Source: Coriobacteriia bacterium
GTDB taxonomy: Bacteria; Actinomycetota; Coriobacteriia; Anaerosomatales; Anaerosomataceae
Length of the DNA stretch: 40,819 nt
Reading direction: 5' to 3'
NCBI GenBank assembly: GCA_016938135.1
Contig: JAFGVD010000032.1
Span: forward strand, 1-40,819
The position numbers and the translations under genes were made by a program. The notes below the pieces were generated by a model, which was given only the letters and a program-made list of their open reading frames with translations, was not told the origin of the DNA and did no database searches. Every line of letters starts with the position of its first letter. Within the stretch, counting starts at the first letter, position 1. Shown here in pieces: positions 5,315 to 20,439 of the stretch.

Positions 5315-7090
5315 ATGAACAGATCCGAACGTGTCTTTGTGCGGCGTGTGGTGGCGGCGCTGGTCGTGCCCCTGTTGCTGCTGTCGACTATGCCGGTCCT
5401 TGCGGCAGATGTCGGCCTTGCTGCCGAACCCGCGAACGATGATGTTCCGGGTGATTCCCTCGTTGCACGTTCCGCTACGTTCACCGGCACACTCAGTGCG
5501 CTGGATTCAGACGATGTCTACTATGTGGATCTGGTCCAGGGTGAGGTGCTCGCTGTCAGTATCAGCGGGCCTTCCAGCTGGTACTTCGACCTCTTCCTCT
5601 TCGGCCCGTCGACCACCTCCATCTATGCGCAGGACGCTGAGTTCCTCGTCAGTAGCGATGCAACAGGCGAAGGTCCCCCGTATGACCCGTATCCCTATGA
5701 GCTGCAGTGGTTGGCCGAGACGACCGGACGCCACTATCTTGACGTCTATGCCTTCGACGGCTCCGGTACCTACACCATCACCTGGCGCATAGTCCCACCG
5801 GACAACAACGAGGACATCCCTGGCAGGTCGCTCACGTCATCGCCGGTAACGGGCTGGGTGGGGAGTCTGAGCGATGTCTCCGACGTGTACGCGGTGACAC
5901 TGTCAGAAGGGCAGGTCTTCCGGGCGTCTGTCAACACCGGTGCCCCGGGGCTGTGGGTCGAGCTCTTCCTCTATCGCCCCACGGCGACCAGTGTCAACGG
6001 TGACTTTCCTGTCGCGTACGGGGACTTCGGTGCGCGCACCGTGCCGGACGGCTTCACGTTCCTGGTCCCACCCGGCGGTACAGGTACGTACTACCTCGAG
6101 GTCTTCGCGGTGTCGTCTTCCGGAGACTACACCCTGACTCACAGCGTCGATCCCAGTGCCAGACAGCTGCGGCTCTACGGCGCCGATCGCTTCGACACCG
6201 CCCAGGCGATCACCCGCTCTATGGCTGTGACCTCCGATGTGGCCATCGTCGCGACGGCCCGCAACTTCCCGGACGCACTTTCCGCCGCCGGTCTTGCGGG
6301 AGCTTATGACGCGCCGCTCGTGCTCGTCGATACCAACACCGTGCCCTTCTCGGCGTATGACATGTTGAGGCTGCTGGAGCCCGATCGGATCATCATCGTG
6401 GGTGGGACTGCGGCGGTGGGCTCTTCGGTTGAGACCGAGCTGAGGACTCTTGCGCCCAGTGTCCGGCGCCTTTCCGGAGGCACGCGATACAGCACCGCCC
6501 TCGCGGTTGCCAGGGAGATACGTTCCGTGGTGGGTCATGCCGATGAGGTCTTCCTGGCCCGGGGCGACGAGTTCCCCGATGCGCTTGCAGCCGCACCGCA
6601 GGCGTTTGCGCGCAAGATGCCTGTGCTGATCACGCCACCGGGCACTCTGGAGAGCGGTGTGGCGGCGTTCATCAATGAGAGCGATGTCTCCCTCGTGACG
6701 ATACTAGGTAGCACGCAGGCGATATCTTCAGGCGTCCAGTCTGCCGTGGACGCGCTGAACGGTGGGGCCACAGATGTCGTGAGACTCCAGGGTGCCGACA
6801 GGTACGCCACCGCCGCCAATATCGCGGTCAACGGTGTCCGCCGTGGATGGGTCGATTTTGAATGGGTGGGGGTAGCCACTGGCACCAACTTCCCGGATGC
6901 GTTGGCGGGTGGCGTGTGCATGGGCTCATACGGTGGCGTTCTGTTGCTCACACTGCCAACCAGGCTCTCGTCTCCCACCGCTGACGTGCTTGCCCGGTAT
7001 GGTCCTGCAAGTCATATCGCGGTTCTTGGCGGGGCTCAGGCGGTGGGCAACAGCGTGTATTCTGCGCTGGGCGGCTATGTGCTCCCGTAG
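5315..7090 (+). CDS. Exported cell-wall protein with three CWB2 repeats
   Basis: This 591-residue exported protein has a signal peptide over roughly residues 1-30 (RRVVAALVVPLLLLS, cleavage near VLA-A). Two tandem PPC-like beta-sandwich modules follow at about 36-150 and 155-275, each with a D-V-Y-x-V core and a final Y-T-(I/L)-T strand. From about residue 286 to the end come three cell-wall-binding repeat 2 (CWB2) units, marked by RLYGADRFDT, RLSGGTRYST and RLQGADRYAT, each followed by NFPDAL or EFPDAL and a VGG-, LGS- or LGG-type element. CWB2 repeats anchor S-layer-like proteins to anionic wall polymers. The start at 5315 is set by the signal peptide and a GGAGAGG site; the open frame upstream is antisense to heliorhodopsin. 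It has no catalytic domain that I can see, so it is likely a surface adhesin or layer protein. Confidence 0.88.
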   Translation: MNRSERVFVRRVVAALVVPLLLLSTMPVLAADVGLAAEPANDDVPGDSLVARSATFTGTLSALDSDDVYYVDLVQGEVLAVSISGPSSWYFDLFLFGPSTTSIYAQDAEFLVSSDATGEGPPYDPYPYELQWLAETTGRHYLDVYAFDGSGTYTITWRIVPPDNNEDIPGRSLTSSPVTGWVGSLSDVSDVYAVTLSEGQVFRASVNTGAPGLWVELFLYRPTATSVNGDFPVAYGDFGARTVPDGFTFLVPPGGTGTYYLEVFAVSSSGDYTLTHSVDPSARQLRLYGADRFDTAQAITRSMAVTSDVAIVATARNFPDALSAAGLAGAYDAPLVLVDTNTVPFSAYDMLRLLEPDRIIIVGGTAAVGSSVETELRTLAPSVRRLSGGTRYSTALAVAREIRSVVGHADEVFLARGDEFPDALAAAPQAFARKMPVLITPPGTLESGVAAFINESDVSLVTILGSTQAISSGVQSAVDALNGGATDVVRLQGADRYATAANIAVNGVRRGWVDFEWVGVATGTNFPDALAGGVCMGSYGGVLLLTLPTRLSSPTADVLARYGPASHIAVLGGAQAVGNSVYSALGGYVLP

Positions 7091-7098
7091 ATGAACGC

Positions 7099-7127
7099 TT
7101 GACCGCGCTCCGCCCCGTCGGTACCAT
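7099..7127 (+). promoter_or_regulatory. Promoter of tRNA-Phe
   Basis: TTGACC (7099-7104) and TACCAT (7122-7127) are separated by 17 bases. Transcription would start about 10 bases upstream of the mature tRNA 5' end. Confidence 0.65.
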
Positions 7128-7143
7128 GTTCCAGCACCACAAT

Positions 7144-7219
7144 GGCCAGGTAGCTCAGTTGGTAGAGCAGCGGATTGAAAATCCGCGTGTCGGCGGTTCA
7201 AGTCCGTCTCTGGCCACCA
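7144..7219 (+). tRNA. tRNA-Phe (GAA)
   Basis: This is a 76-base cloverleaf. The acceptor stem GGCCAGG pairs with the 3' end of the gene and the 3' CCA is encoded. The D-loop segment is AGCTCAGTTGG and the T-loop is GGTTCAAGTCC. The anticodon stem GCGGA/TCCGC encloses a seven-base loop with anticodon GAA at 7177-7179. Confidence 0.97.
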
Positions 7220-7233
7220 TACGAAACTCTTCG

Positions 7234-7257
7234 GAAGCCGCCCAATGAGGCGGCTTC
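7234..7257 (+). terminator. Stem-loop terminator after tRNA-Phe
   Basis: A nine-base-pair perfect stem (GAAGCCGCC / GGCGGCTTC) with a six-base loop lies 14 bases after the tRNA CCA end. The following T content is weak, so termination may be partial. Confidence 0.65.
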
Positions 7258-7372
7258 TGTGCCTTCTCGCTTGATTCGCCAGCCTTGTCTGCAGCAGGAC
7301 TGTGTTCCTCGGCCATACTAAAGGGCACAATGGAGTCAGAGTTGTCCCTCTCATGGAAGAGAGCCTCGATCG

Positions 7373-9610
7373 ATGCCCGCACTCGATATCAGGACTCTGT
7401 TCTTCAGCTCCATGGTGCTCATGGCGCTGAATGTGGCGGTGATGTTCCCCATCTGGTGGCAGAACCGCGATCGTTCAACCGGGACGATATTCTGGCTCGT
7501 GAATGCCGTCTTCCAACTGGTCGCGGTCGGTCTTCTTGGACTTCGCGGCGTGATCCCTGACATCATCTCGGTGATAGTGGCAAACGCGATGGTGATCGGC
7601 GGAATGATTCTTCTCATCATCGGGCTGCAGTATTACCTGAACCGTCGCACCTCTCAGGTGCACAACCACGTGTTACTTGTCGCGTATCTGAGCATCCATG
7701 CCTACTTCACATTCGTGCAACCCGATCTGACGGTGCGCAACATCAACTCTGCGCTGGCGATGGCGCTCGTTGCCGTCCAGGGAGCGTGGCTGCTGTTGCA
7801 CGGGGTCGAGCCTGAACTCCAGAGGGCGACCCGTGCCCCCGGAGTCGTCATGTCGGGTTTTGTGCTTGTGAGCCTGGTGCGAGTCCCGTTCGAGTTTGTG
7901 GGACCTCAGAGCAACGACTTCTTGAGCGCGGGGCTGGTGAGCGGGCTTGCGCTCGTCGGCTGGCATATCTTGTCCGTTGCATTCACATTGAGCGTGCTGC
8001 TCATGGTCAACCAGCGTCTGGTGCTGGCACTCGAACGAGACATCGCAGAGCGGGAGCGAGCCCAGGCTGCCCTGGAGTTGAGCGAGGAGCGGTTCTCCTC
8101 GGCGTTCCATACATCACCGGACGCGGTCAACATCAATCGCCTTTCGGACGGCCTGTTCGTGGAGGTGAACAGGGGCTTCACGGAGCTCACGGGGTACACG
8201 GTCCAAGACATCGAGGGTAGGACCTCCGCCGACATCCAGATATGGAACGATCCGGCGGACCGTGAGCGCCTTGTAGCGGGTCTTTCGGCAGATGGCCGAG
8301 TCAACAACCTGGAAGCGGTCTTCCGGCGCAAGGACGGCACTACCACCACGGCGCTCATGTCCGCGCGTCTTATCGACATCAACGGCGAGCGATGCATTCT
8401 GTCTGTCACCCGCGACATCTCGGAGCGTAAGTCGGCCCAGGAGGCTGTGCGTCGCAGCGAGCAGTGGCACAGGACGATCTTGCAGACCGCTATGGACGGA
8501 TTCTGGCTTGCAGACACAGAAGGACGCTTGCTTGAGGTGAACGAGACCTATTGCCGCATGACCGGCTACAGCGAGTCCGAACTGCTGTCGATGCGCATAG
8601 CGGATTTGGATGCTTCTATGGACGCTGTCGCGGTGAACGCGATGATCGAGATGACCAGGGAGTGTGGCGAGAACCGCTTCGAGTCACAGCATCACCGCAA
8701 GGATGGCAGCGTCTTCGACGTTGAGATAAACGTCCAATACCGTCCTGACAGTGGAGGAAGACTCGTCGCGTTCATTCAAGACGTGACCGCACGAAAGCGA
8801 TACCAGGATGAGATCATGAGTCTCAACCAGAGTCTTGAGATGCGCGTGCAGGAGCGGACGCAGGCACTCATGGCGGCAAATACGGAACTGGTGGAGACCA
8901 ACATCCGCCTCGACGAAGCAACACGTGCCAAGAGCGCTTTCCTGGCGGCGATGAGCCATGAGTTGCGCACGCCGCTCAACTCTGTCATAGGTTTCTCGGA
9001 CATCTTAGTCAAGGGCATGACGGGGGAGCTCGAGCCTGAGCAAGAGAAGCAGGTGCGTATGATCAACGCATCGGGCAAATATCTCCTGGAACTCGTCAAT
9101 CAGGTGCTCGACCTTTCCGCTATAGAGATAGGGCGTCTGAAAGTGGAGCGCCGGTCCGTGGATGTCGAGGCGCTTGTGCGCTCAGCCACCGGGTCCGTCG
9201 CCCCGCTGGTGTCCGAGAAGGACGTCGATCTCTCATGGAAGGTCTCACCGGAGGTCGGTGCGGTGATTTCCGACCGCACCCGGCTTGAGCAGGTCTTGCT
9301 CAACTTGTTGGGCAACGCCATCAAGTTCACCGACTCGGGGTCTATCCGCCTTGAGGTCGAGCAAGACGGCCACGACATCGTATTCACGCTTACTGACACT
9401 GGATGCGGGATTGAGGAAGAAGACCTCGGGAAGATATTCGATGAGTTCTACCAGGCGCGGCGATCTGACGTTGCGAAGTCGGAGGGCACAGGGTTGGGAC
9501 TCACGGTTTCCAGGAGGCTTCTCGGTATGCTTGGCGGCACCATCACTGTGGATAGCGTACCCGGTGAAGGCGCGACGTTCGCGGTGCGTCTACCGATGGA
9601 TGTGGGCTGA
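7373..9610 (+). CDS. Seven-helix membrane PAS-PAS histidine kinase
   Basis: This 745-residue sensor kinase begins with about seven hydrophobic helices over residues 8-218, resembling the membrane sensory modules found on many bacterial kinases and cyclases. Two PAS domains follow (about 237-355 and 361-478), then a short coiled coil, a HisKA domain with SHELRTPLN and phospho-acceptor H529, and a C-terminal HATPase with LLNLLGNAIKF, DTGCGI and GTGLGL. All catalytic motifs look intact. The ATG is preceded by a modest GGAAGAG site. The stop overlaps the next start in TGATG. The input signal is unknown. The nearest response regulator, at 10069, belongs to another kinase gene, so the true partner is uncertain. 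Confidence 0.92.
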   Translation: MPALDIRTLFFSSMVLMALNVAVMFPIWWQNRDRSTGTIFWLVNAVFQLVAVGLLGLRGVIPDIISVIVANAMVIGGMILLIIGLQYYLNRRTSQVHNHVLLVAYLSIHAYFTFVQPDLTVRNINSALAMALVAVQGAWLLLHGVEPELQRATRAPGVVMSGFVLVSLVRVPFEFVGPQSNDFLSAGLVSGLALVGWHILSVAFTLSVLLMVNQRLVLALERDIAERERAQAALELSEERFSSAFHTSPDAVNINRLSDGLFVEVNRGFTELTGYTVQDIEGRTSADIQIWNDPADRERLVAGLSADGRVNNLEAVFRRKDGTTTTALMSARLIDINGERCILSVTRDISERKSAQEAVRRSEQWHRTILQTAMDGFWLADTEGRLLEVNETYCRMTGYSESELLSMRIADLDASMDAVAVNAMIEMTRECGENRFESQHHRKDGSVFDVEINVQYRPDSGGRLVAFIQDVTARKRYQDEIMSLNQSLEMRVQERTQALMAANTELVETNIRLDEATRAKSAFLAAMSHELRTPLNSVIGFSDILVKGMTGELEPEQEKQVRMINASGKYLLELVNQVLDLSAIEIGRLKVERRSVDVEALVRSATGSVAPLVSEKDVDLSWKVSPEVGAVISDRTRLEQVLLNLLGNAIKFTDSGSIRLEVEQDGHDIVFTLTDTGCGIEEEDLGKIFDEFYQARRSDVAKSEGTGLGLTVSRRLLGMLGGTITVDSVPGEGATFAVRLPMDVG

Positions 9611-9993
9611 TGATGGTCAAGAACCCAGAGTTGCTCCCGCTTTTTGGGGAGCTGAAGTCCCTACTGAAACCCTACGCCCGGCACTTCACCGTCCGCAAGG
9701 ATGAACCCGGATACTACGATCTATGGTCGGAGCGAGACCTGGTCATCGCCGACCGAAAGCGCAAAGAGGTCTTCTTCGCCGGACTGATCATCCAGAAGAG
9801 CTACGTGGGTTTCTACTACATGCCCATCTATGCGGACGTCTCCGCCGAGAAGTTCTTCGGACCCGAGCTACTTTCGCTGCTCAAAGGGAAGTCGTGCTTC
9901 TACATCCGGGAACTCACGCCGGTGCTGCGCACGCAGATCGAAGATGCGCTGGCAGGCGGTCTGGCCATGTACAAAGAACGCGGCTGGGTTTGA
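9610..9993 (+). CDS. Small DUF1801/YdhG-like protein
   Basis: This is a 127-residue soluble protein without signal peptide or membrane segment. A central strand-rich part (KSYVGFYYMPIYAD) and a GKSCFYIRELTP motif near the C terminus resemble the DUF1801 (YdhG-like) group, whose function is not established; the assignment is tentative. Translation starts at ATG 9610 within the stop of the sensor kinase (TGATG), with another ATG immediately after, so it is translationally coupled to the kinase. That coupling suggests a role linked to the kinase, but nothing in the sequence proves it. Confidence 0.72.
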   Translation: MMVKNPELLPLFGELKSLLKPYARHFTVRKDEPGYYDLWSERDLVIADRKRKEVFFAGLIIQKSYVGFYYMPIYADVSAEKFFGPELLSLLKGKSCFYIRELTPVLRTQIEDALAGGLAMYKERGWV

Positions 9994-12179: not shown

Positions 12180-12295
12180 ACTCAACGTCAACTCAACCTG
12201 CGATGAACACGCAGCCAACCTTCTTGGCCGATGATATAGCCATGTGATGATCGACGGCGTGCAAATCGCGCTATCATGAGGACGAGGTGGTACGG

Positions 12296-12835
12296 ATGAG
12301 GATCATGTCCAGGAAGCTGACGCTCGGGTTTGCTGTTTGTTTCTTGATCGCAGCGCTCGTGGTGCCTGCAGCCGCTCTTGCGGCGCAAGGACAGTCTGCT
12401 GCAGCCGCAGGTGAGAAGTCCGCGGTAGTGGCGTCGGCCAGTAGCCAGCGTCTTGAGCAGCGAGTGATGACCGCGCTCCAGAACCGTGCAAAGCGATTCG
12501 AGAACTATGCGGCCATGTTGGAGCGCACGCAGACACGCCTCCTTGCGTTCTGTGAGACTGCTGAGAAGGCCGGCGCGGACTGCGATGCGGTACGTGAGCA
12601 GCTACAGCTCGCAACCCAGACCATGGAGCAGGCCCGTGTCCAGGAGCAGCTCGCAACCCAGATGTTCAAAGGCGTCCCGGATGCGGAGAACATGCGCGGT
12701 ACTTTCCAGCAGGCCCGGGTTCAGGCCCGTGTCTCGGTTCAGACGATGAAGCAGTCGCGCGATCAGATGAGGACCGCTGCTGGTCTGCTCAAGACCATCG
12801 TGGAAGACCTTGTTGATGATGTTGACGGAGTCTGA
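12296..12835 (+). CDS. Exported helical, glutamine-rich protein
   Basis: This 179-residue exported protein has a signal peptide (KLTLGFAVCFLIAALVVPAA, cleaved near ALAAQ). The mature part is almost entirely helical and Gln/Arg/Met-rich, with an imperfect repeat, QLATQTMEQAR then QLATQMFKG, and two cysteines about 12 residues apart (AFCETAEKAGADC). I do not recognise a family; in general shape it resembles periplasmic helical stress proteins such as CpxP, but the LTxxQ motif is not evident. The start was set at ATG 12296 from the AGGTGG site; GTG 12287 and ATG 12305 are alternatives. It directly abuts a small lipoprotein gene and follows a two-component system. Confidence 0.75.
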   Translation: MRIMSRKLTLGFAVCFLIAALVVPAAALAAQGQSAAAAGEKSAVVASASSQRLEQRVMTALQNRAKRFENYAAMLERTQTRLLAFCETAEKAGADCDAVREQLQLATQTMEQARVQEQLATQMFKGVPDAENMRGTFQQARVQARVSVQTMKQSRDQMRTAAGLLKTIVEDLVDDVDGV

Positions 12836-13150
12836 GTGAGAAGATCTGTAGTCGCCGTACTGCTCTTGATGTTACTAGTCGCAGGTCTGAGCGGATGCGG
12901 CACGGACGACAAGAGCACAGTCGATGATGGAGTGACTGCCCCCGGGGCCGTCGCTCCGTCGACTGATGTCACGGGGACCACCGACTCGAGTGCGACGGCG
13001 GATGACCCGGCTGATGGCAGTTCAGCTGGAGACAGCGAACCTACCGAGACGGACGCCATCTTGAAAGAGCTTGAGGCCATTCAGCGTGAGCTGGATGAGA
13101 CCGCCCTGCCTGATGATAGCGACTTCACGGACATAGAGAACGGTCTGTAG
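12836..13150 (+). CDS. Small acidic lipoprotein
   Basis: This 104-residue lipoprotein starts at a GTG immediately after the stop of the upstream gene. The signal peptide (RRSVVAVLLLMLLVAG) ends in a good LSGC lipobox with C21. The mature protein is low-complexity, rich in Asp, Ser, Thr and Ala for about 50 residues, and likely disordered. A short predicted helix (ILKELEAIQRELDE) comes near the C terminus. No family is recognised. Its tight linkage to the helical exported protein suggests that the two act together at the cell surface. A strong terminator follows 18 bases after the stop. Confidence 0.75.
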   Translation: MRRSVVAVLLLMLLVAGLSGCGTDDKSTVDDGVTAPGAVAPSTDVTGTTDSSATADDPADGSSAGDSEPTETDAILKELEAIQRELDETALPDDSDFTDIENGL

Positions 13151-13223: not shown

Positions 13224-14708
13224 CTACAGGTACTGCCACACGTCTTCGATGCCGTATTCCGCCGCAGGCACGCACTCATCTATCGAGATGGCGAAATCGC
13301 CGGACTCCGGATCGATAAGTCGCAGGTCGATGACCTCTTCCTCGGCGAGCCAGCGACCCTTGGGGTCGATGATCGTCTTCACGCGCGGGCGGAGCAGGTC
13401 GTCCCGGTTGACCCGGAAGACCACGCTGATCGACCCGTCGCTCAACTTCACCACGGCACCCATCGGATAGATGCCAAGCATGGCGACCAGCGCCTTGGTG
13501 ACCGAGGGATCGTATGCCTTGCTGCGTCCCTGCATCAGCACAGCGAGCGCCTTGTCGGGGCGGATCTCGCGTCTGAACGGCCGGCGCGTGGTCATCGCAT
13601 CGTATGCGTCACAGAGCGCGACCACCTTGCTGAACAGGTGCTGCTCGTGCGGCTCTCTGAGTTCCGGGTAGCCCTTCAGATCGTGACGCTGGTGGTGTTC
13701 GTAGGCCACGATCATCGGCATCTGATCCACCAGCTGGATGCGTTTGAGCAGGTCCGCGCCTTCCGTCGCATGGCTCTTCACGACATGCCATTCGTCGGCG
13801 GTCAGTGGGCCCTCCTTGTTGAGGATGCCCTCAGGTATGCGCACCTTGCCCAGGTCGTAGAGCAACGCCGAGAGGCCCAGCGACTTGAGCGACTCCGCAT
13901 CCAGGCCAAGCGCCGCGCCTAAAGACAGCGCGAGTATGCATACGTTGATCGAGTGGTTCAGTGTGTAATCGTCGTGACTCTTGATGGCGGTCAAGCCAAG
14001 GACCGCAGCGGGGTCCTTGAAAAGCGTGTCGAGCAGATTGCTCACCAGATTCTGGAGCGGTTCTACCTCGAACACCTTGCCCAGCTTGACCTGCGTCTCC
14101 ACGTCACGCATGAGCGTCACGCCGTTATCGTAGGACTCCTTGCCGCGCGCCTTGTTCTCTCGCGCCTCGGCCTCTCGAGCGGCATCCAGCTCGGTCGTCT
14201 CGGCGATGAGGACTCCGTGGACACCTTGCTGCTCAAGGTACTCGCGAGCGGCGTCGATGTCCCTGATCTCGCTGTTGTTGAGCAAGTTGGCCAGGGTAGA
14301 GGCATCTTGTGGCGAGAACGCCTCGCTCATCGTGAGTGCGGAGACTCCCCGGGCCAGCAGGTCCTCGATGAGTTTGCGGTACGTCACGCTCTCCTCGGGA
14401 AGCACGTGGTTCTCAATGAACAGGGTGCCCTTGTAGACGTTCAGGGTGACCTCTTCAAAACCCAGCTCCATGATGGAGGTCACCGCATTGGCGAACTCGC
14501 GCATGGACTCGACGACAAGCGGATGGCTGGCCGGGTACAGCGATGCGTTGTTCTGGGCAACCGCCAGGGCTCTTGCAAGTTCGCGCGCAGCTTCAAGTCG
14601 TTTCGCCGTCGAGAATGGGTCGCGCGCTGCAGGCTGTGCCATCGCTGCAATCTCCCGTGGAGACTCCAGGCGTGTTTCTTCGTTGCTGTTCTCGGACACG
14701 ATATCCAC
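13224..14708 (-). CDS. Variant HD-GYP domain protein
   Basis: This 494-residue soluble protein has an N-terminal all-helical/beta module (about 35-150, containing ASLYPASHPLV) and a C-terminal HD-GYP-like domain (about 245-420). Canonical HD-GYP proteins hydrolyse cyclic di-GMP. Here the hallmark HD is YD (Y284-D285 in LLYDLGK), the HHE motif reads HHQ, and GYP is kept (LKGYPEL), so two metal-site positions are altered. Other family features remain, such as the HSxxV helix, LTADEW and a DAYDAMTTRRPFR segment. It may be a receptor or an altered-specificity phosphodiesterase. It follows the HEAT-repeat gene by three bases and shares its N-terminal module. Confidence 0.85.
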   Translation of the reverse strand: MDIVSENSNEETRLESPREIAAMAQPAARDPFSTAKRLEAARELARALAVAQNNASLYPASHPLVVESMREFANAVTSIMELGFEEVTLNVYKGTLFIENHVLPEESVTYRKLIEDLLARGVSALTMSEAFSPQDASTLANLLNNSEIRDIDAAREYLEQQGVHGVLIAETTELDAAREAEARENKARGKESYDNGVTLMRDVETQVKLGKVFEVEPLQNLVSNLLDTLFKDPAAVLGLTAIKSHDDYTLNHSINVCILALSLGAALGLDAESLKSLGLSALLYDLGKVRIPEGILNKEGPLTADEWHVVKSHATEGADLLKRIQLVDQMPMIVAYEHHQRHDLKGYPELREPHEQHLFSKVVALCDAYDAMTTRRPFRREIRPDKALAVLMQGRSKAYDPSVTKALVAMLGIYPMGAVVKLSDGSISVVFRVNRDDLLRPRVKTIIDPKGRWLAEEEVIDLRLIDPESGDFAISIDECVPAAEYGIEDVWQYL

Positions 14709-14711
14709 CTC

Positions 14712-16634
14712 TCAGGTGATGCTTTGATCCTTACGTACGCTCGCCAGAACCCGGCGAGCGAGATAGCGAATCTCCCGGTTCTGCTTCCCGACCACGAATC
14801 GACGCTGCGCGATACGGCTTAGTGCGGGGATGGCCTCGGCCGGTCGCAAGACATCCAGACTCCTTAAGACTTCTTTCTTGAGCTCATGATTCCTGCCAGC
14901 GAGTCCTGCATCATCGAGGACTTCGATGAGGGCGGGTATTGCATCTCTGACGTTCAGACGTCCGATCTCTTTGGCTGCCATCCGCCGGGTCTCAACGTCC
15001 CAGTGTCCCAGAGCGCCGCTGAGGATCCTCGTGCTCTCGGGTCCGGGTACTTCGGCGATGGATGTGACTGCGGTGCACCGGACGCCGGCATCGAGGTGCT
15101 CGAGGGCCTGTGCCATCGTGGGCACGACACGCTTGTCATTCAGAGAGCCGAGAAGCGCGAGAACCGATGTCGCGGCCTCGGGATCCCCCGTTCGGACGAT
15201 GCGACCTGCAACGGGTCCGATGCTCTCGGTCAGCCGTACAGCCGCGGGCCGGAGAGCGTTCCTGCCAGTCTCGGTAGCGTCTACGTATGAGCCGAGAAGC
15301 GCTTCCGCGCCCACCGGACCGGCGGCGACCATTACCGCCACAGCGCCCTGCTCGGCAGGCCCTTCTATCAGGGAGGCGCACACGTCCCTCAGGAGCCCGG
15401 GGTCGGCGATCGTGGTCCTTGCCTGCGTCACGGCCGGACCCAGCACGGCGTCGGCCGAAAGCTCCTGCAAAAGGGTCAGCGCGGCCTCCGTTGCCGGGAA
15501 CGCCCTTGCTTGCACGGCCGGCGGCAGCGCCTCGCCCAGTGCCTTGATGGACTCCTCGCAGGGTCTCATCCGTGCTATGTCCACTGTGGTCTCCAGAGCT
15601 CGACCGGCAGGGGAGGTCCGTTTGACGTCCGAGACGAGCTGCTCGATGCGGGCGGAGTCCTGTTCTTGGGCATCGGACATGTCCGATGCCATCTCCTCGA
15701 TGCCGGGGTCAGCAGGAACGCCGCGCTGTTCGTCGGTCTGGGGCGCCGGGGTCAGCAGGGCCTGAAGCTCTGCGGCGACCTCCGGGGGTAGTTCGACCAT
15801 GCCCAGCAGGCTGTCGGTGTCCTGTCCGGTGCGCGAGGCCACGAGCCTGAGGAGTCGGGCGAGCGCAGACGGGTTCATCTTGGCGATGACCCGGAGCATC
15901 CCGTCCATACGCTTACCGGATGGATCAGCCTGCATCGCAGCGGTGATCACGTTGGTGCGCATTCCTTCATCCAGCCGAAGCAGCGCTTCCGTCACTCGCT
16001 TGGCCGCCAGGTCGCGAGCCGCCGATTCCAGCGTGTCGATGGCGGTTGCCATGTCGTCGCGTCCTGCCCCCTCGCGAGATGTCGCGAGCCACTGGTGTGC
16101 TAGCCCCGGCAGTTCGCTTGCTATCTCCTCGGCAGGAGCCGTCGTGAGATCCAGCCCCATGATGCCATCTTCAGTGGAGGCTCTGAGGCTCACCTCGACC
16201 ACAGCAAGGTTGCTCACAGAGGCTCTGACGAGTGCGTCGCGCATGCCGCCCGAAGATCGGACGTTGCGCGCTTCCATCCCCAGGATGGCGAGGAAGGCTT
16301 TCACTTCGTGCGGAGTGATCCCCGGAGCGATGATCAGTTGTCCCACCTGCAGCGCATGCAGCGCCTCAGCGAGTGCGGCGACCTGGGGGTATGCGTGACC
16401 AACGGGCGTGCCGTCGATGATGAAGCGCTTTCTGTCGACCGCGAACTGGAGCGGCCCTTGTGCGGCCAGGGCCGAGCTTGCCTGCGTGAATCGCGCGATG
16501 GCCGCTTCGCGAAGCGGGCTGGATTCAGGGTACAGCCGTACGGCGTTTGCCGCGCCCGCCAAAAGACGCAGCGTCTCTTCTGCGCGTCCCTGGGCGCCTT
16601 GTGTACGGCGACTCTCCACGACCCTGCCCCTCAT
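14712..16634 (-). CDS. HEAT-repeat protein with HD-GYP-associated N-terminal domain
   Basis: This 640-residue soluble protein has an N-terminal module (about 15-130, with VRLYPESSPL) clearly related to that of the downstream HD-GYP protein. A long helical middle follows, and HEAT-type alpha repeats occupy roughly residues 440-630 (units such as DKRVVPTMAQALEHLDAGVR and VETRRMAAKEIGRL). HEAT solenoids are protein-binding scaffolds. No catalytic motif is visible. The ATG at 16634 has only a weak ribosome site; a GTG five codons later, behind AGGGGCAGGG, is an alternative start. It is cotranscribed with the HD-GYP gene, so a joint signalling role is inferred. Confidence 0.82.
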   Translation of the reverse strand: MRGRVVESRRTQGAQGRAEETLRLLAGAANAVRLYPESSPLREAAIARFTQASSALAAQGPLQFAVDRKRFIIDGTPVGHAYPQVAALAEALHALQVGQLIIAPGITPHEVKAFLAILGMEARNVRSSGGMRDALVRASVSNLAVVEVSLRASTEDGIMGLDLTTAPAEEIASELPGLAHQWLATSREGAGRDDMATAIDTLESAARDLAAKRVTEALLRLDEGMRTNVITAAMQADPSGKRMDGMLRVIAKMNPSALARLLRLVASRTGQDTDSLLGMVELPPEVAAELQALLTPAPQTDEQRGVPADPGIEEMASDMSDAQEQDSARIEQLVSDVKRTSPAGRALETTVDIARMRPCEESIKALGEALPPAVQARAFPATEAALTLLQELSADAVLGPAVTQARTTIADPGLLRDVCASLIEGPAEQGAVAVMVAAGPVGAEALLGSYVDATETGRNALRPAAVRLTESIGPVAGRIVRTGDPEAATSVLALLGSLNDKRVVPTMAQALEHLDAGVRCTAVTSIAEVPGPESTRILSGALGHWDVETRRMAAKEIGRLNVRDAIPALIEVLDDAGLAGRNHELKKEVLRSLDVLRPAEAIPALSRIAQRRFVVGKQNREIRYLARRVLASVRKDQSIT

Positions 16635-18282: not shown

Positions 18283-19397
18283 CCGAACAAACCAAGCCGG
18301 TGGTGTTCTTCGCACCGATGCGCTCCAAGATGAAGAGGAGCCTGGTCAAGCGCGCGGGTGATCTGTTGGATCGCGCCGGTCTGAAGGATGCGATAGCCGC
18401 CGACGACCTGGTGGCCATAAAGCTCCACTTCGGCGAGGAGGGCAACACGGGCTTCGTGCAGCCCATCCACCTGCGCGAGACCGTCAAGCGCATCAAAGCG
18501 GCCGGAGGCAAGCCCTTCTTGACGGACTCGAACACGCTCTACCGTGGTCAGCGCTTCAACGCGGTCGACCATCTTGAGTGTGCTCTGCACAACGGTTTCG
18601 CATACGCCACTGTGGAGGCGCCGCTTGTGATAGCCGACGGGTTGGACGGTCGCGAGGCCGTGGACGTCCCCATCGCGGGGACGCACTTCGACAGCGTCCG
18701 GATCGGTGCCGCTGCAGTCCATGCGGACGCCATGGTCGTGGTCACTCACGTCAAGGGCCATGAGGCCGCGGGCTTTGGCGGGGCGCTCAAAAACGTCGGG
18801 ATGGGCCTGGGCTGTCGTTCCGCCAAGCAGCGCATGCATGCCGACTTCCGTCCCGAGGTGGATGCCGAGAAGTGCACCGCATGCAAGCGATGCGTCCAGT
18901 GGTGTCCCGTGAACGCCATCGCCATAGGCCCCGATCGCGTCGCCGTGGTCGATTACGAAGTCTGCTACGGCTGTGGCGAATGTGTTGCTGCCTGCCCGTA
19001 CGCTGCGATCGCAACCCAGTGGAAGACTGAGGCTAACGCGCTGCAAGAGAAGATCGCGGAACATGCCGCCGGAGCGCTGGTCGGCAAGTCGGGGAAGGTG
19101 GTCTACCTGTCCTTCCTCACCGCCATCTCGCCGGATTGTGACTGCTGGAACTTCTCGGATGCGCCCATCGTCGCTGATATCGGCGTCCTGGCGTCCACAG
19201 ACATCGTCGCGATAGACCAGGCCGCCTACGACCTGGTCAATGCATCGGTAGGCTTGCCCGGCTCGCGCGGTGAGGGCATGGCGCAAGGCGAAGACAAGTT
19301 CACCAAAGTGAGCGGCGTCGACGGCACCCGGGTCATGGCGCATGCCGAGGTCCTTGGCATCGGCTTGCGCGAGTACGTTCTGAAGATAGTCGAGTAG
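18279..19397 (+). CDS. DUF362 protein with two 4Fe-4S clusters
   Basis: This 372-residue protein has an N-terminal DUF362 domain (KLHFGEEGNTGFV, KPFLTDSNTLY, VVTHVKGHEAAGFGGALKN) and a ferredoxin-like insert with two [4Fe-4S] motifs, CTACKRCVQWCP and CYGCGECVAACP, near residues 200-250. A C-terminal part containing CDCWNFSD follows. The family is widespread in anaerobes, and its reaction is not established to my knowledge; an electron-transfer role is likely from the clusters. It overlaps the ROK kinase stop (ATGA), so the two are translationally coupled. No signal peptide is visible, which suggests it is cytoplasmic. Confidence 0.88.
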   Translation: MTEQTKPVVFFAPMRSKMKRSLVKRAGDLLDRAGLKDAIAADDLVAIKLHFGEEGNTGFVQPIHLRETVKRIKAAGGKPFLTDSNTLYRGQRFNAVDHLECALHNGFAYATVEAPLVIADGLDGREAVDVPIAGTHFDSVRIGAAAVHADAMVVVTHVKGHEAAGFGGALKNVGMGLGCRSAKQRMHADFRPEVDAEKCTACKRCVQWCPVNAIAIGPDRVAVVDYEVCYGCGECVAACPYAAIATQWKTEANALQEKIAEHAAGALVGKSGKVVYLSFLTAISPDCDCWNFSDAPIVADIGVLASTDIVAIDQAAYDLVNASVGLPGSRGEGMAQGEDKFTKVSGVDGTRVMAHAEVLGIGLREYVLKIVE

Positions 19398-19425
19398 GGA
19401 CAAACAGACCCCAAAAGGAGCACGC

Positions 19426-20439
19426 GTGGATTACTTCGGGATACTGAAGAAGGCGTGGAACGTCACCTGGCACAACAAGGCCCTGTGGATACTCGGGTTC
19501 TTCGCGGTGTCATCTTCAGGCGGCAGCAATTACGGCAGCAGTGGCACCAGCTGGCAGGAGTCTGCCAGCACCGGCGAGCTCGATCAGGTGGCTGGCTGGG
19601 TCGAGGCCAATGTGGGGCTCATCATCGTCCTGGTCGTCGCCCTCGTGTTCATCGGGCTTGTCATGGCGGTACTGGGTATCGCCGCGCGCGGTGGACTCGT
19701 CCACATGGTCAATGAGGCCGAGGAGGGCCGACCCGTCACGGCGGGTAGCGGTTGGCAAGTGGGCTTCCGCTACTGGGGTCGCACATTCATGATCGGCCTG
19801 GTGCTGGCGTTGCCGATCCTGCTCATAGTATTGGTCATGACTGTCATGCTTTTCGGCGCGGGACTCGGATTGTCCAACCTCGGAGCCGAATCGGCCTCGG
19901 CCGGTTTGGGCTTTGGCGGCGCCATGTGCTGCATGCTGCCGGTGTTCATCATCCTGATCTTCGGCGCGGCGTTCCTCGTGAGCGTGATCGGCGAGTTGGC
20001 GGTCCGCTACGGCGTCTTGCACGATGTCTCCTTCGGTCAGGCGATCAAGCGCGGCTGGGACGACGTATGGGCGAAGCGCGGTGCCGCGGTCATGTGGCTG
20101 GTCATGCTCCTGCCCGGCTTCGCGTACGGGATGGTCATGTTCATCGCGATGCTGGTGATATTGGTTCCTGCGGTCTTGCTCTTCATCTCCGGAGCGGTTG
20201 TGGCCGGCGTTGTCCTGATAGTCTTCCTGATGCTGCTCATGTTGCTGCCGGGAGCCATATACAACACGTTCTACTCGGCGAGCTGGACGATCTTCTTCCG
20301 TCGGATGACGGGCGTCGACACGACGATCGCGCCTTCCGGTGCCGGTGTTACCCAAAGCTACATGCCTCCACCCCCTGTGCCACCCACGGCTGCGCCACCG
20401 GTGGCGCCTCCCGCGGGCGCCAACGCGTTAGAGGACTAG
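19426..20439 (+). CDS. Multi-helix membrane protein with Pro-rich tail
   Basis: This 337-residue integral membrane protein starts at GTG behind a strong AAAAGGAG site. After a short soluble start (MDYFGILKKAWNVTWHNKALW) there are about five or six hydrophobic segments, some very Gly/Met-rich, and a C-terminal cytoplasmic tail rich in proline (PPPPVPPTAAPP). It resembles the loosely defined membrane-domain proteins of actinobacteria that resemble glycerophosphodiester phosphodiesterase membrane regions. I cannot assign a function. A second membrane protein with a similar opening follows after three bases, so the two probably form a complex or are distant paralogues. Confidence 0.78.
   Translation: MDYFGILKKAWNVTWHNKALWILGFFAVSSSGGSNYGSSGTSWQESASTGELDQVAGWVEANVGLIIVLVVALVFIGLVMAVLGIAARGGLVHMVNEAEEGRPVTAGSGWQVGFRYWGRTFMIGLVLALPILLIVLVMTVMLFGAGLGLSNLGAESASAGLGFGGAMCCMLPVFIILIFGAAFLVSVIGELAVRYGVLHDVSFGQAIKRGWDDVWAKRGAAVMWLVMLLPGFAYGMVMFIAMLVILVPAVLLFISGAVVAGVVLIVFLMLLMLLPGAIYNTFYSASWTIFFRRMTGVDTTIAPSGAGVTQSYMPPPPVPPTAAPPVAPPAGANALED

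Follow-up and report, generated by a model that had tools for sequence, protein, structure and literature searches.

The closest described systems to the locus analyzed here are HD-GYP proteins and their variants. In PmGH of Persephonella marina, replacement of residue H221 by Ala essentially abolishes hydrolysis, and the Y/F HD-GYP subfamily is probably binuclear (PMC4159591). The variant YN-GYP protein PA2572 shows no detectable phosphodiesterase activity, yet it has a regulatory role and a partner protein to which it binds (PMC3411652). The order Anaerosomatales (OPB41), from which the analyzed DNA originates, has been described, and its cultured relatives are piliated and non-motile (PMC9686372). 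A literature search on HEAT repeats combined with HD-GYP or cyclic di-GMP, most subscription journals being outside its scope, revealed nothing on a pair of the kind reported below.

Organization of the gene pair

The window (the whole stretch of DNA that was analyzed, 40,819 nucleotides) contains on its minus strand two adjacent open reading frames. The upstream gene (positions 14712..16634) encodes a HEAT-repeat protein of 640 aa (Pfam HEAT_2, E 2e-10), and the downstream gene (13224..14708) an HD-GYP protein of 494 aa (Pfam HD_5, E 4.1e-23), for which an alignment of 41 orthologous sequences was also available. They are separated by three bases (14709..14711, minus strand) and are tightly linked in the same order in orthologous loci, and a gap of this size is consistent with their co-transcription. 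The HD-GYP gene has a second in-frame GTG at position 14699, preceded by the sequence GAGGTGG; with this good ribosome-binding sequence it may be the true start codon, in which case the gap would be 12 bases. The preliminary description, which had placed the genes three bases apart, holds for the annotated starts.

Pfam assigns only HEAT_2 to the first protein and only HD_5/HD to the second. The HEAT_2 match (41.2 bits vs a cut-off of 27.7, in two stretches) places the former among HEAT-repeat proteins, as had been claimed; the repeats are C-terminal (residues 481-640; 14715..15194, minus strand), with the best HEAT_2 stretch at residues 481-542 and a HEAT_PBS match at residues 550-575. The HD_5 match of the second protein also exceeds its cut-off, which assigns it to PF13487 and the HD superfamily, and its HD-GYP domain (residues 242-403; 13500..13985, minus strand) aligns with that of PmGH (PDB 4mcw) at E 2.2e-25.

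Outside the order the flanking genes are not conserved (several are shadow ORFs), so that the pair alone is the stable unit. Within the order, the neighboring two-component system, M78 peptidase, ROK and DUF362 genes are conserved as part of a general synteny and were rejected as a functional clue. Two small secreted- or lipoprotein-like proteins without a Pfam match are encoded between the two-component system and the pair (12287-12835 and 12836-13150, plus strand), and relatives of the first occur in most orthologous loci. Another protein without a Pfam match (127 residues; 9610-9993, plus strand) is encoded between two histidine kinase/response regulator genes.

A common N-terminal domain

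The preliminary description had reported, from comparison by eye, a related N-terminal module of about 115 residues in both proteins. Pairwise BLASTP of the two sequences gave E 0.24; such a similarity is not significant from two sequences alone, and profiles were needed. When domain profiles were built from 41 and 40 orthologues, taken from related genomes, hhalign matched them over 131 columns with a probability of 98.3% (E 1.6e-13). The controls, a reversed profile and off-register windows from the HEAT protein that lack the domain, reached a probability of 0.3% or less. The module is therefore real, but slightly longer than had been proposed: it comprises approx. 135 residues, approx. 38-172 of the HD-GYP protein (14169..14600, minus strand) and approx. 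15-150 of the HEAT protein (16167..16595, minus strand).

Separate AlphaFold2 models of the two copies, computed from separate alignments (72 rows for the HD-type and 74 rows for the HEAT-type), have the same topology; structure prediction of the two domains was part of the second check suggested at the outset. Mean pLDDT was 92.7 (pTM 0.85) for the HD-type and 96.2 (pTM 0.90) for the HEAT-type copy, and in both models the order of elements is two long helices, a beta hairpin, a helix, a strand, helices and a strand. The domain is thus modelled as two long helices connected by a YPxxHP-containing loop and followed by an alpha/beta part. Tyr-Pro, usually within YPxxHP, is near-invariant in this loop (invariant in a 30-row alignment and in that of the HEAT-type copies, at least 90% in that of the HD-type copies); His-Pro follows it in at least 90% of the HD-type copies, and the loop is conserved above the rest of the domain. 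By profile comparison the two N-terminal domains are homologous and represent one common domain.

Database searches did not link this domain to any known family, sensory and dimerisation domains included. No Pfam model covers it (the best E was 0.049 among 30 members, and each family was matched by one member only), no NCBIfam match across the domain reached its cut-off, and fold searches of the PDB gave no convincing structural match. VIA-align produced a best Z of 7.2 across a helical hairpin of 48 residues only, and the best Foldseek values were weak (E 0.16-0.21, TM 0.20); its top rows were PelD/GAF and phytochromes at a TM of about 0.2, and we did not use them as evidence. The only match in a PDB sequence search with the domain profile was Octarellin V.1, a designed protein (E 5.6e-5, with no stretch that passes by itself), and it was judged an artefact. 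A plasmid search with the domain gave no match. The domain is undescribed and has no curated family.

Distribution of the pair

The genome contains three HEAT and HD-GYP pairs, of which that of the window will be referred to as A-type and the others as B and C. The two further pairs lie in divergent orientation on contig 32, at a distance of 6 kb from each other (L014:8266-10248 with 6947-8269 on the minus strand, and L014:16145-18319 with 18316-19800 on the plus strand). They flank a CorC/PspC-like/Maf-like block, an arrangement shared by many members of the order. A PAS-GGDEF-EAL protein is encoded at L014:3112-5196 (plus strand), about 1.8 kb from the HD-GYP gene of the second pair.

All three pairs have orthologues throughout the order Anaerosomatales of the Coriobacteriia. 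The A-type HEAT protein has orthologues in nearly all of 61 relatives, and the A-type HD-GYP protein retains 69-79% identity across the order. The domain was found in 67 of the 68 sampled genomes of Anaerosomatales and, at E 0.001, in none of 81 other Coriobacteriia; strong matches were present in 45 of 296 sampled Actinomycetota (the order included), and the domain was also present in 96 of 247 genomes of a sample assigned to Desulfobacterota by its centre genome, a Desulfotignum. Similar pairs, with HEAT preceding HD-GYP, occur in other Actinomycetota and in Desulfobacterota. The duplication is not peculiar to the window pair; the proposal of an uncharacterised pair in the preliminary description was borne out, since this is a conserved two-gene unit on which we found no publication.

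A domain-bearing HEAT gene was present directly upstream on the same strand in 98 of 100 domain-bearing HD-GYP genes examined, the Desulfobacterota part of this sample being partly chosen for adjacent hits. In one exception (L052) a stop codon interrupts the HEAT gene, and the other (L116) is a true single HD-GYP gene with no HEAT neighbor. In a sample found from the HD-GYP protein alone, free of adjacency bias, 13/13 orthologous loci were paired. The gene pair is widespread and had not been described before; judged from sequence, it probably senses or turns over cyclic di-GMP.

History and other architectures of the domain

In a tree of the domain (144 columns, with weak deep forks) the HD-type and HEAT-type copies of both phyla separate, with 3 label changes vs 27 in shuffles; a strict single clade of HD-type copies was neither shown nor rejected (AU p 0.38). 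In each domain type, the A, B and C copies of the order cluster separately. This pattern suggests one or a few ancient duplications of the domain, the HEAT-type and HD-type copies apparently splitting before the three pairs of this genome arose, with each pair subsequently inherited or transferred as a unit.

The search for other architectures, likewise proposed in advance, revealed several. In two proteins of about 1300-1400 residues a GGDEF domain, an AAA ATPase, the shared domain and HEAT repeats are fused in one chain (L102:2021-6193, minus strand; L117:6591-10454, plus strand). Large proteins of Desulfobacterota have two tandem copies of the domain before the HEAT repeats (L140:1039-5334, minus strand; L141:1-3774, plus strand). 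Long proteins composed of the domain and HEAT repeats also occur, and some domain-HEAT proteins have no HD-GYP neighbor.

The fusion to a GGDEF-ATPase ties the domain to cyclic di-GMP and is, besides the HD-GYP domain itself, the strongest link to this nucleotide that can be read from the sequences. The co-occurrence of GGDEF proteins, which are encoded by 45/45 domain-positive genomes of the Actinomycetota sample (296 genomes), is weak evidence, because they are common in the phylum (271/296). A PilT-family ATPase (E below 1e-80) is also encoded by all 45 domain-positive Actinomycetota, and about 88 of the 296 genomes lack one. Together with the piliated, non-motile habit of the cultured relatives, this is suggestive of a pilus link, but kinship confounds the co-occurrence, and we left this link out of the main claim.

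Predicted catalytic state of the HD-GYP protein

The HD dyad of the window protein is Tyr-Asp. Tyr284 (codon 13857..13859, minus strand) occupies the position of H221 of PmGH, the His of the dyad, and Tyr is found here in all A-type orthologues (42/42), while His is present in the other domain-bearing HD-GYP proteins (58/58), whose dyad is His-Asp. The signature HHQRHDLKGYP differs from the canonical HHExxDGxGYP, present in other, ordinary HD-GYP proteins of the same genome, in that HH, D and GYP are kept and the E and the G of DG are not. Glu does not follow HH in any of the listed motifs of the family, and DG is often DL or DM, without the G; for this reason the whole family may prefer a substrate other than cyclic di-GMP. 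When 100 members were aligned to PmGH, most had Tyr at the E185 position, which varies between known subfamilies; apart from this position, the dyad His of the A-type and a few changes at the D305 equivalent, the metal ligands were kept.

Most members retain the full set of metal ligands that a binuclear HD-GYP enzyme should have and probably hydrolyse cyclic di-GMP. The window protein is probably a receptor or regulator of cyclic di-GMP and not an ordinary phosphodiesterase, because Tyr replaces the very His whose exchange for Ala abolishes hydrolysis in PmGH; family knowledge predicts that its hydrolysis is impaired. The HD-GYP-like output of the preliminary description was thus correct as to the domain, with HD_5 and PmGH matches, but the dyad His is absent in this copy, and "output" may here mean a receptor and not an enzyme.

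Discussion

We interpret the window pair as one representative of a conserved cyclic di-GMP module of two genes, in which the HD-GYP protein is controlled or localised by its scaffold and the A-type version serves as a receptor, a reading that we believe and doubt in about equal measure. According to this model, the HEAT-repeat protein of the first gene would act as a scaffold for the HD-GYP protein of the second, and the same N-terminal domain is present in both; the two would be co-produced and, as their pairing suggests, associate via the shared domain and/or the HEAT solenoid, with the scaffold controlling or localising its partner. The window HD-GYP protein would probably bind cyclic di-GMP without efficient hydrolysis and pass its state to the HEAT protein. 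Family knowledge points to cyclic di-GMP as the ligand and to HEAT repeats as a protein-binding scaffold; we infer the direction of control and the target process, and likewise mutual binding, the part of the domain therein and the ligand sensed.

Tyr can ligate iron, and the His-to-Tyr exchange might therefore alter rather than abolish catalysis. In an alternative reading, the A-type protein would be a phosphodiesterase that is still active, its metal site being altered, and the HEAT partner its regulatory subunit. The A-type does not look like a product of decay, since Tyr284 is invariant at 69-79% identity across the order, and the remaining metal ligands are kept with the few exceptions given above. 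We nevertheless consider activity unlikely, as every paralogue keeps the His, Ala at the equivalent position inactivates PmGH (PMC4159591) and PA2572 has no detectable activity (PMC3411652). It is comparably doubtful that the domain serves each protein separately, mainly for homodimerisation or ligand sensing, and that adjacency reflects one pathway without a stable complex. Long domain-HEAT proteins without an HD-GYP neighbor, the single HD-GYP gene of L116 and a YPxxHP loop more conserved than the remainder, as a ligand site might be, would fit such separate use; however, domain-domain association agrees better with a pairing and a gene order that are almost fixed in two phyla, and with the tandem arrangement of copies within single chains (L140, L141). 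Least probable of all, and in our view very unlikely, is a pair unrelated to cyclic di-GMP, its HD-GYP-like domain having taken on a different phosphohydrolase or scaffold function: the signature deviates from the canonical form in every member, with a residue other than Glu after HH and frequently DL/DM for DG, but the family retains GYP and almost the full set of metal ligands, and the same shared domain with HEAT repeats is fused to GGDEF.

Returning to the two-gene module, we tentatively propose, with less confidence than the interpretation above, that the shared domain marks a new family of cyclic di-GMP complexes found in at least two phyla, in which a HEAT scaffold and an HD-GYP protein would be joined by heterotypic homologous domains, and that the window pair may be a receptor subclass through its fixed His-to-Tyr exchange. 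The domain has no curated family, solved relative or publication that we found, yet gene pairs marked by it are present in most of the Anaerosomatales sampled. A complex of the two proteins, if formed, would represent a new way of controlling cyclic di-GMP proteins in anaerobes of subsurface metal/sulfur cycling, and thanks to the fixed exchange, enzyme and receptor versions can be compared cleanly as natural variants inside one genome. The finding is real and broader than the initial reading suggested, and the variant in the window resembles a receptor more than it does an enzyme.

Compared with known systems, the second protein resembles PmGH in being an HD-GYP protein by sequence, with the GYP motif and metal ligands, and its family resembles the Y/F subfamily (PMC4159591) in having Tyr at the E185 position. 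It differs from HD-GYP phosphodiesterases such as PmGH in its undescribed N-terminal domain, its HEAT partner, the residue other than Glu after HH and the Tyr of the dyad. Likened by description and not by alignment, PA2572 of Pseudomonas aeruginosa also has Tyr first in the HD motif and keeps GYP; it acts through protein interaction with no detectable cyclic di-GMP hydrolysis (PMC3411652), and differs in its N-terminal REC domain and chemoreceptor partner. The first protein shares with the solenoid proteins of PF13646 a significant HEAT_2 match, here at the C-terminus, to which it adds the shared N-terminal domain and fixed pairing with an HD-GYP protein.
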